From positions 1-37,718 of the forward strand of contig JAEUIE010000013.1 of assembly GCA_016795155.1 (NCBI GenBank): DNA of 37,718 bases, read 5' to 3'. The position numbers were made by a program, and so were the translations under genes. This document shows positions 18,338 through 22,675 of the stretch, in pieces; positions within the stretch are counted from its first letter, which is position 1; every line of letters starts with the position of its first letter. The DNA comes from Planctomycetia bacterium (GTDB taxonomy: Bacteria; Planctomycetota; Planctomycetia; Gemmatales; HRBIN36). Below the pieces are notes generated by a model that saw nothing but the letters and a program-made list of their open reading frames with translations, had not been told where the DNA came from and ran no database searches.

Positions 18338-18739
18338 TTACCAACAGTATCCGCCACCCCATCCATAACCGCCCCAATATCCACCCCAGGGTCGGTAATA
18401 ACCTACGCTAACTCCCCAGCCGCCGAAATAGGGCCGGTAATATCCGCCCCATCCCCAACCGCCGTAGTAAGAACGATATCCACCACCCCAGCCCCAGCCA
18501 TATCCGCCGCGCCATCCCCAGCCACCGCGCCAGCCCCAACCACCCCAGCCATAGCGCCGCCACGATTGCGTGGGTGATTCGCTATCCAACTCACTTGTTG
18601 TGCTATTTGAATCTACAGCCTGTTTGCTAACTGCAGGAAGTGTGTTCTTTTTCGCCGATGTATCGTTGTCCATCTCACCGGCTGATAGAGGTACCACCAT
18701 CCCCAGTGCTACTGCCAGACTGAAAAGAGATCGTAACAT
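18338..18739 (-). CDS. secreted Gly/Trp/Tyr-rich protein
   Basis: The 133-residue protein has a signal peptide (MLRSLFSLAVALGMVVPLSAG), a short polar spacer with Ser, Thr and Asp, and then about 70 residues made almost only of Gly, Trp, Tyr and Arg: runs such as GWGWRGGWGWRGGYGWGWGG and YYRPYFGGWG. It ends in CW. Such low-complexity exported proteins occur in planctomycetes. A structural or surface role is possible but not shown. The start at 18739 was chosen because AGGAG lies eight bases upstream and the signal begins directly. It lies between the subtilase and the lysoplasmalogenase on the same strand. Confidence 0.75.
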   Translation of the reverse strand: MLRSLFSLAVALGMVVPLSAGEMDNDTSAKKNTLPAVSKQAVDSNSTTSELDSESPTQSWRRYGWGGWGWRGGWGWRGGYGWGWGGGYRSYYGGWGWGGYYRPYFGGWGVSVGYYRPWGGYWGGYGWGGGYCW

Positions 18740-18812
18740 GTTGCGACTCCTGAACATGTATAAGCCATCTTCTAACGAGAGTACTCTCGATGTAAACAAT
18801 AAACAAGTGAGT

Positions 18813-19541
18813 TCACGAAACTTGCGCTGCAGTTCTAGTCCTGTACACAAGAACCCAGGCGAAGCCTAGGACAATCAACATCTGCCCGGGGCCGTAGGTT
18901 GCCCAGACCAGAAATCGAAGTTGCGGGGTGCTGCCTTGAAACATTTCCCAGGCAATAACGCCATCGCTGAAAAGAAACAACATGGCTCCGAGTGCAGACC
19001 AGATAAACTGCCTGTTCTGAATCGCCAGTGCCGAAGTGACACCAGCGGTGGCGGCGAGCAATGCACCATACGCCAATGCAGGGATATGCAGGGGAAGATG
19101 TTGATCACTGCGATTGACGATGAAAATCCAGATGAGGATGCCGATGACCTGCCAGGCTAATATCGCGAGCCACCACAGGGCATTGGCAGGTATTTGAAAG
19201 TATCGGCGTGCCAGCAGCGCACCATAGATGTACGCCAGATGCCCGATGCCAAAAAACAACATGCCACCGATGACAGGGCTGGGGAAGAACTTGAACAACC
19301 CCGCCATCGCACAATCGCCCAGAAAGCCGAAAAACATACCCACCGCAATGCAGACCGCAATGCGCCGAGGTGCGGCAGCAGTTTTGAAGACGGTGTACCA
19401 GGCAGCCAGAACCAAAATGAAACTGCTGGTCAGTTTCATCGAGGGCAGGGTACTGAAATGCTCTTTATCGAGCCATTGCAGATCGAGAAGTAAGCCTGTG
19501 CCGAGAGTGAAGAGCCACAGGAGCAAGAGTAAATAGTACAT
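18813..19541 (-). CDS. YhhN/TMEM86-family lysoplasmalogenase-like membrane protein
   Basis: The 242-residue protein is almost wholly hydrophobic, with about eight spans. It has the YhhN signature: KLTSSFILVLAAW, then FGFLGDCAMAGLFKF, then FFGIGHLAYIYGALLARR, and near the end GAMLFLFSDGVIAWEMF. The conserved aspartates of LGDC and SD are proposed catalytic residues of this family, which hydrolyses the vinyl-ether bond of lysoplasmalogens. Whether that activity holds here is not known. No good ribosome site is visible upstream of the ATG at 19541. Confidence 0.85.
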   Translation of the reverse strand: MYYLLLLLWLFTLGTGLLLDLQWLDKEHFSTLPSMKLTSSFILVLAAWYTVFKTAAAPRRIAVCIAVGMFFGFLGDCAMAGLFKFFPSPVIGGMLFFGIGHLAYIYGALLARRYFQIPANALWWLAILAWQVIGILIWIFIVNRSDQHLPLHIPALAYGALLAATAGVTSALAIQNRQFIWSALGAMLFLFSDGVIAWEMFQGSTPQLRFLVWATYGPGQMLIVLGFAWVLVYRTRTAAQVS

Positions 19542-19738
19542 TGATGATTCTGGTTAGTAGTCATCACGCTCTGTCGCGTTGACGGAGTGTGCTGGTTGAG
19601 AAGTAAAAGCAAAGTCTATGGTATGAATGGTTTTACTTGCGTGACCTCTTCACACTACCAACATTGAAATTGTTCATCCACAAAAGCGAATTTGGCTGCA
19701 TTCTCTTGATTCTAAGACAGAGATCGGCTTATGCCTGA

Positions 19739-19767
19739 TTGTGTATGGGACCATCTGGCTATATAGT
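19739..19767 (+). promoter_or_regulatory. candidate sigma-70 promoter of a small RNA
   Basis: TTGTGT at 19739-19744 and TATAGT at 19762-19767 are separated by 17 bases. The -10 box matches the consensus in five of six positions and the -35 box in about three. The predicted start, near 19774, is at the foot of the stem-loop that ends in a T run. Confidence 0.4.
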
Positions 19768-19772
19768 TCTGG

Positions 19773-19849
19773 ACTGATCAAGCCCCTTCGATGCTAATGT
19801 AAGCAATTACTCTTGAGGACAAGGAAGGGGGTCTAATCAGTTTTTTTTT
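19773..19849 (+). ncRNA. candidate small RNA ending in an intrinsic terminator
   Basis: CTGAT at 19773-19777 pairs with ATCAG at 19836-19840, and CCCCTTC pairs with GAAGGGG inside it. Between them is GTAA-GCAA-TTAC, a small hairpin with a tetraloop. Nine T's follow at 19841-19849. No plus-strand gene ends upstream within five kb, so the terminator is not explained as the end of a protein gene. With the promoter at 19739 it would give an RNA of about 77 bases. It does not look like 6S, SRP, RNase P or tmRNA. Confidence 0.4.
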
Positions 19850-20074
19850 ACTTAAGTAATGACTGCGTCATTGGAATTTTCATTGAAGAAACAAACACTT
19901 TTCTCAATTACATGTATCTGCCAGTTTGACAGCGACTCCCAATCGATATTACGCAATTCGACAAATGTATCCATAAATCGTTATCTAGAAACACGTTGTA
20001 ATCTATAGAGTTGATTTGGCCTACTAATTGCTCTTACATTTTCATCAGAACACAGTTCTCAATTTGGATAGAAA

Positions 20075-22675
20075 ATGAACCCCAACAAAATGACAGAAAA
20101 AGTACAGGAAGCATTACAGGCGTCACAGAGCCTGGCGTTACGTCGTGGCCATCAGCAAATTGAAGTTGAACACCTTTTTCTGACCCTGTTGCAACAGGAA
20201 GAGGGGTTGGCTGCAGCCATATTGAACAAACTCGGAGCTAATGCCAAGGCCATTCAGGCTCGTCTGGAAATGGAACTCGACAAGATTCCGAAAGTCAGTG
20301 GGGGAGGCGATCAGGTTTTTCTATCTGGCCGCTTGAATCGACTGCTGGCAACTGCCGAAGATGAAGCCAAGAAACTGAAAGATGATTTCATCTCGGTAGA
20401 GCATTTGTTGCTTGCGATGATGAACGATACCGGAGCCACCGGCAAGATTCTGAAGGAAGCCGGGCTGAACCGTGATGACATCTTGAAAACCCTCAAAGAA
20501 GTGCGAGGATCGCAACGCGTGACATCCCAGAACCCGGAAGGCACCTATCAATCGTTGGAGCGGTATGGCCGTGATCTGACCGACCTCGCAGCTAAGGGCA
20601 AGGTTGACCCTGTCATTGGGCGCGATGAAGAAATTCGCCGTGTGATACAAGTACTTTCGCGACGAACTAAAAACAATCCGGTGCTGATTGGCGAACCTGG
20701 TGTTGGCAAAACCGCTATCGTGGAAGGATTGGCACAGCGTATTATCCGTGGCGATGTCCCCGAAGGCTTGAAAAACAAGCGAGTTGTCGCACTGGATATG
20801 GGCGCGCTGATCGCTGGAGCTAAGTACCGTGGCGAATTTGAAGAACGTCTGAAAGCTGTCCTGAAAGAAGTACAGGAATCAGCAGGAGACATCATTTTAT
20901 TCATTGACGAAATGCACACGGTGGTGGGTGCAGGCAAAGCTGATGGGGCTATGGATGCAGGCAACCTGCTCAAACCCATGCTGGCACGAGGCGAGTTGCA
21001 CTGCATCGGCGCTACCACGCTCGATGAGTATCGCAAACATGTTGAGAAAGATGCAGCACTCGAACGTCGCTTCCAGCCGGTCATGGTCGATCAACCCAGC
21101 GTGGAAGATACGATATCGATTCTGCGCGGCCTGAAGGAACGTTACGAAGTGCATCACGGTGTACGAATTCAGGATGCGGCTTTGGTAGCTGCTGCCACGC
21201 TTTCCAATCGATACATCACCGAACGTTTCCTGCCTGATAAGGCAATCGACCTGGTCGATGAAGCTGCAGCCAAACTGCGCACCGAAATCGACTCTCAACC
21301 CACTGAGTTGGACGAAGCCAATCGCCGGTACATGCAACTCGAAATCGAAAGGCAGGCACTGAAGAAAGAAAAAGACGCTGCTTCCAAAGACCGACTTGCC
21401 AAGCTGGAAAAGGAACTCGCAGACATCAAGGAGAAAACGCAATCACTGCAGGCACGCTGGCAAACGGAAAAATCTGCGGTACAGTCGCTGCGGAGCTTGC
21501 GGGAGAAGATTGATGAGACCAAGCAGCAGGTGGATGTCGTTACCCGACAGGGCGATCTCTCCAAGGCTTCGGAACTCAAATACGGTGTGCTCCCTCAATT
21601 GGAATCACAATTGAAAGATGCGGAGTCCAAACTCTCTTCCCTGGAGCAAGGCAGCAGACTGATCAAGGAAGAAGTGGATGAGGAGGATATTGCCCGCGTC
21701 GTTAGCCGTTGGACTGGAGTTCCTGTCACTAAGCTGATGGCGGGAGAAGCACAGAAATTGCTCAGCCTGGAAGATGACCTGCATAAACGGGTAGTTGGCC
21801 AGGAAGATGCAGTACGGGCTGTTGCAGAAGCTGTGCTGCGTGCCCGTTCAGGATTGAAAGATCCACAGCGACCCATTGGATCGTTCCTGTTCCTGGGACC
21901 TACTGGCGTAGGCAAAACTGAACTGGCCCGAGCCTTGGCGGAAACCCTGTTCGATGATGAACGGGCCTTGATCCGCATCGACATGTCGGAATACCAGGAG
22001 AAACACAATGTCAGCCGGCTGCTCGGTGCACCCCCTGGCTATGTAGGCTACGAAGAAGGAGGCCAGCTGACAGAAGCAGTTCGACGACGCCCTTACGCAG
22101 TCATTCTTCTTGATGAAGTGGAAAAAGCGCATACCGATGTCTTCAACGTGCTGTTGCAGATTCTCGATGATGGCCGATTGACTGATGGCCAGGGCCGGGT
22201 CGTCGATTTCAAGAATACGCTGCTGATTATGACGAGTAACATCGGCTCACGTCGTATTCTGGAATTTTCAGGCAAAACCAGTGGTGCGGTATTTGAGCAC
22301 ATGGAATCTGCTGTTCTGGAAGAATTGCGTGAGCACTTCCGGCCTGAATTCCTCAATCGCGTTGATGAAACAGTGGTGTTCCATGCACTGACCGAAAGTG
22401 ATCTGAAGAAGATCATCGATATTCAGTTACAACGATTGCTCAAACGACTGGAAGAACGGCATATAGTGCTCGAACTGTCTGAATCTGCTCGAAAGCATCT
22501 GCTTTCCAGCGGTTATGACCCTGCGTATGGAGCCCGGCCACTCAAGCGGGCCATTCAGCGGGAGTTGGAAACACCTCTCAGCAGAAACCTGCTGTCAGGT
22601 AAAATACGTGACGGGCAACGCATTGTTGCAGAGAACGATGAAGACCAAGGCGGCATCTCGTTCCGTACCATCTGA
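20075..22675 (+). CDS. clpB: ATP-dependent chaperone ClpB
   Basis: This is the 866-residue hexameric disaggregase that works with DnaK to recover aggregated proteins after stress. The N-domain (residues 1-145) has the double Clp repeat. The first AAA+ module has Walker A GEPGVGKT at 206-213 and ILFIDEMHT as Walker B. A long coiled-coil middle domain follows (about 405-530, [16 protein letters not shown] onwards), which separates ClpB from ClpA and ClpC. The second AAA+ module has GPTGVGKT near 608 and [11 protein letters not shown]. The C-terminus has [15 protein letters not shown]. The length matches E. coli ClpB (857). The ribosome site is weak (GGAT). No heat-shock operator is clear. Confidence 0.97.

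Follow-up and report, generated by a model that had tools for sequence, protein, structure and literature searches.

Analysis of the window (the whole 37,718-nucleotide stretch of Planctomycetia DNA studied here) identified, in the 533-bp spacer separating the divergent YhhN and clpB genes, a terminator-like hairpin that is real and rare, and that may form the end of a small RNA transcribed on its own. The reading that we favor, tentatively, is that the spacer holds a separate, intrinsically terminated short unit specifying a lineage-specific untranslated small RNA. We infer that transcription from a weak housekeeping promoter would begin near position 19773 and yield an RNA of about 77 bases, that RNA polymerase would halt at the interrupted stem and its nine-T run, and that the released RNA may act on some target. 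clpB would have a sigma-54 promoter of its own, with transcription starting near 20043. What the sequence itself shows is the hairpin, a nine-T run that is rare, no clear plus-strand gene in need of a terminator, and the sigma-54 signature located downstream (Table 1). Nothing at the hairpin site points to a new kind of element.

Table 1. Features of the candidate unit and of the clpB promoter region, in window coordinates.
Feature	Position	Strand	Remarks
Weak sigma-70-like promoter TTGTGT-17-TATAGT	19739..19767	+	8/12 matches
Candidate 77-base terminated transcript	19773..19849	+	putative start
Interrupted stem CTGAT/ATCAG + CCCCTTC/GAAGGGG	19774..19840	+	inner hairpin CUUG-AGGA-CAAG, a second one ambiguous
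Nine-T run, intrinsic-terminator-like tail	19841..19849	+	rare in the window and in the genome sample
Activator-like site of clpB, TGCCAGTTTGACA (TGNCA-N3-TGNCA)	19919..19931	+	outside the candidate RNA; at -156
Sigma-54 promoter signature of clpB, TGGC-N7-TTGC	20017..20031	+	outside the candidate RNA; at -58

The gene context is compatible with a unit that stands on its own. The upstream neighbor, YhhN (18813-19541), is encoded on the minus strand, and the plus-strand frames near the unit are either antisense to YhhN (99 and 102 aa) or short frames within the spacer (26 and 33 aa), leaving no clear plus-strand gene ahead of the hairpin, as had been pointed out at the outset. The possibility that the hairpin terminates a short upstream frame was rejected on the small size of the two spacer frames. 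A search of the genome contigs with the YhhN neighbor yielded one locus, 50% identical, and in a genome of the same family (G003:C233; L038, L039) the YhhN relative matches in two pieces, one of them with an internal TGA. A 170-aa frame on the minus strand (18338-18850) lacks a Pfam match and is rich in Gly, Tyr and Trp toward its C terminus.

The interrupted stem comprises 12 pairs, contributed by an outer (19774-19778/19836-19840) and an inner (19783-19789/19824-19830) set of arms, and the nine-T run directly abuts its 3' end (19771-19849, plus strand). The fold predicted for the 79 bases at 19771-19849 reaches -24.2 kcal/mol, a value matched by 16 of 1000 dinucleotide shuffles, and an 82-base version was matched by 4 of 200; as modeled, the fold is only moderately better than shuffled sequence (z-score -2.5). 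Shuffling the core 2000 times produced 18 spanning stems of equal strength, and 2 of 2100 shuffled-spacer stretches had one, both counts being made with no T-run requirement. The minimum-energy interior combines UGCU/AGCA with CUUG-AGGA-CAAG. The inner tetraloop hairpin of the original prediction is absent from it, since the GCAA loop occurs in suboptimal folds only: the best fold with the GCAA tetraloop hairpin, which lacks CUUG-AGGA-CAAG, is predicted at -23.1 kcal/mol, and the best with both small hairpins at -22.4 kcal/mol.

The nine-T run is the strongest part of the candidate. Both the run and the predicted unit length of about 77 bases were recovered as described, the latter corresponding to positions 19773-19849, and the run is the only one of at least seven Ts in the window. 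We extended the count to a genome sample of 1.56 Mb (out of 5.28 Mb), composed of the window and 77 further stretches and scanned on both strands for T runs. Runs of at least eight Ts were found 30 times, six of them with a length of nine, and among those six only the run at 19841-19849 falls outside frames of at least 100 aa.

The genome seems to use intrinsic terminators. When the 1.56-Mb sample was scanned with strict criteria, it gave 38 terminator-like sites, 17 of which lie within frames of at least 150 aa and 21 between them, corresponding to densities per 100 kb strand of 0.65 inside frames versus 4.18 between. Eighteen of the 21 intergenic sites come after a frame on their own strand, and for 13 of them the distance past the stop is 34-53 bases; two more come after an opposite-strand frame, and the last has no preceding frame in its stretch. 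One of the two sites after an opposite-strand frame (L081) does follow a 79-aa same-strand frame, which has no Pfam match. The other of the two (L074, contig C3, 6200-6240), a terminator-like hairpin with no preceding same-strand frame, is located just before a 37-aa frame that, judged by eye, resembles ribosomal protein L36. Like Rho-independent terminators, the candidate has a G+C-rich inner helix and a stem that ends directly at its T run. Unlike them, it has an internal loop and a branched interior in place of an uninterrupted stem with a short loop, and it comes after a minus-strand gene, YhhN, not after a clear gene on its own strand. The scanner, which accepts loops of 3-8 bases, omits the site, and the hairpin (19774-19849) is not part of the strict count because its stem is interrupted.

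The two hexamers (TTGTGT at 19739-19744 and TATAGT at 19762-19767, with 3 and 5 matches, respectively) and the 17-base spacing on which the promoter claim rested are indeed present, but at 8 of 12 matches the pair is weak and does not rise above shuffled sequence. It goes unlisted by a promoter scanner with a threshold of at least 9/12 and 4 per hexamer. Plus-strand sites with at least 8/12 matches number two in the 533-bp spacer, fewer than in 1000 shuffles (mean 3.5), and 4.3% of the shuffles have such a site ending 4-9 bases before the same spot. The promoter of the candidate RNA is weak and at chance level.

Searches for relatives of the candidate returned nothing that we regard as homologous. 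At the DNA level, 40 relatives yielded matches of 16-25 bases only, in 5 of the 40, and these were taken as chance. A covariance model, which was built from a single sequence and is nearly blind to distant relatives, matched the candidate site alone in its own genome, with no second copy, ruling out a mobile repeat. Across 101 other genomes of the order the model gave one match (G032, E 0.031), which falls inside a 368-aa coding frame and was likewise attributed to chance; among 391 other genomes sampled from the phylum it gave none at E 0.05, and with laxer filters on 30 relatives its single match (G029, E 4.9) was also taken as chance. The searched genomes include no member of the same genus, and close-range conservation is therefore outside the scope of these searches. 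Phage and plasmid records contained no match to the candidate and one exact 23-base pattern was absent from viral contigs, and a phage, plasmid or viral origin was rejected on these grounds. The Rfam search suggested with the original prediction found no family for the candidate: in the window, nothing exceeded the gathering cut-off except a tRNA at 578-650, and at a low threshold the region 19542-20100 gave four matches, to eukaryotic snoRNA families and far below their cut-offs. A narrow literature search brought up no work on the small RNAs of this group.

Intrinsically terminated intergenic small RNAs form a general class in bacteria. The candidate resembles this class in its promoter-like pair, short non-coding stretch, stem with T run and position between divergent genes, and differs from it in that its transcript is putative, its promoter is at chance level and neither a relative nor a known family was found for it. 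With 6S RNA (RF00013) it shares the form of an interrupted hairpin as a stand-alone RNA, but at 77 bases it contrasts with a model of 187 positions. 6S RNA was rejected on size, and the sole 6S match of the genome lies elsewhere (G000:C15:28083-28266, L121), with a score of 44.8 bits that narrowly misses the Rfam cut-off (46.4).

To place the hairpin with respect to clpB, we compared 29 clpB loci, the one in the window included, from 31 genomes (own genome included), two of which had no clpB match at the cut-off. Seven of the 29 loci have the TGGC-N7-TTGC signature in the 100 bases before clpB (-46 to -88), versus 3 of 1094 control stretches, and seven have the paired TGNCA-N3-TGNCA site in the 200 bases before it, versus 0 of 535. 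The controls come from inside clpB and from the sequence downstream of it, and are mostly coding DNA. Each pattern recurs in 6 of the 28 loci besides that of the window. Three loci carry both elements (the window, L012 and L022), four the sigma-54 signature without the paired site (L018, L025, L033 and L036) and four the paired site without the signature (L013, L032, L034 and L035). The layout is not universal, because 18 of the 29 loci have neither element in exact form. The genome also encodes a protein with a sigma-54 DNA-binding (RpoN) domain. We take COG0542 to cover ClpA/ClpB, and the order of the window to belong to the class Planctomycetia. A regulon study places COG0542 with those protein-turnover genes that, in Planctomycetia, show an enrichment of predicted sigma-54 promoters, and it does not name clpB as such (PMC12316311). 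A sigma-54 start near 20043 would place the hairpin outside the clpB mRNA. Two neighboring palindromes at 19848-19872, TTACTTAAGTAA and AATGACTGCGTCATT, overlap the end of the T run; they are present in single copy in the window and are a possible operator. A CIRCE-type operator was set aside on visual inspection only.

The location of the sigma-54 signature bears directly on the proposal that the hairpin is a leader signal for clpB. As an attenuator, it would stop a basal housekeeping transcript started at 19773 or, under regulation, let it read into clpB. The hairpin does lie on the same strand as clpB, with 225 bases from the T run to the clpB start, and its branched stem would itself be the terminator, an arrangement shared by some riboswitches. 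One of the 28 other clpB loci (L010, from G023) also has a branched fold (-27.2 kcal/mol) ending at a T6 run, at -120 from clpB, which the covariance model did not match. Against this, both the sigma-54 signature and the activator-like site lie downstream of the nine-T run, and none of the 28 other loci has a run of at least eight Ts in the 1500 bases upstream of clpB. Complementarity to the clpB leader was no better than in shuffles (129 of 200 as good; with a longer stretch, 87 of 200), and a 14-nt inverted match between 19790-19803 and 20033-20046 is no more than chance would provide (30 shuffles gave a mean of 0.87). Because the sigma-54 signature sits downstream of the T run, we judge a clpB-leader role quite improbable. 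Complementarity to the YhhN leader was likewise no better than in shuffles, and base pairing with either leader was rejected on this comparison. The suggestion of a stress RNA found no support, the candidate having no Rfam match, no copy in the searched relatives and leader complementarity at shuffle level. Even more speculative, and highly improbable in our estimation, is a lineage-specific small RNA, about 77 bases long, in which the closing stem is also the terminator and the AGGA loop (CUUG-AGGA-CAAG) could bind CsrA, or else a branched ligand-sensing element that gives clpB a basal housekeeping transcript beside the sigma-54 one. CsrA prefers GGA in a loop, and the genome contains two csrA-like genes.

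Two further explanations dispense with a functional RNA. The hairpin could be a bare insulating terminator, which would block stray plus-strand transcription (for instance, antisense through YhhN) ahead of the activator site and sigma-54 promoter of clpB and release an RNA without a role. Its position immediately before the activator-like site and the sigma-54 signature, the scarcity of its T tail in the genome sample and the absence of its interior from every relative searched would all fit such an element, but the interrupted stem fails the strict rule by which the other terminators of the genome were counted and no upstream plus-strand transcript is known. We consider this explanation somewhat doubtful. 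The alternative is coincidence, in which the AT-rich spacer contains a hairpin and a T run by accident and nothing starts or stops there; we consider it unlikely. It gains from the base composition of the spacer (38.8% G+C versus 50.5% in the window), the chance-level promoter, the modest z-score of the fold and the lack of conservation in the genomes searched. It is at odds with the rarity of both parts of the hairpin: a nine-T run outside frames is unique in the 1.56-Mb sample, and stems this strong were found in only 2 of 2100 shuffled-spacer stretches, which together make a joint coincidence improbable. The preferred reading of a separate small unit agrees with the description of the element as free-standing: a rare nine-T run closes the hairpin, no clear plus-strand gene precedes it and the sigma-54 and activator-like elements of clpB lie downstream.

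The candidate is currently isolated. If the transcript exists, it would constitute a small RNA with no known relatives, next to a chaperone gene that appears to be under sigma-54 control. The more solid by-product of the analysis is the occurrence of the sigma-54 signature, the paired TGNCA site or both ahead of clpB in a number of relatives, which suggests that, in several genomes of the order, clpB is expressed from an enhancer-driven chaperone promoter.
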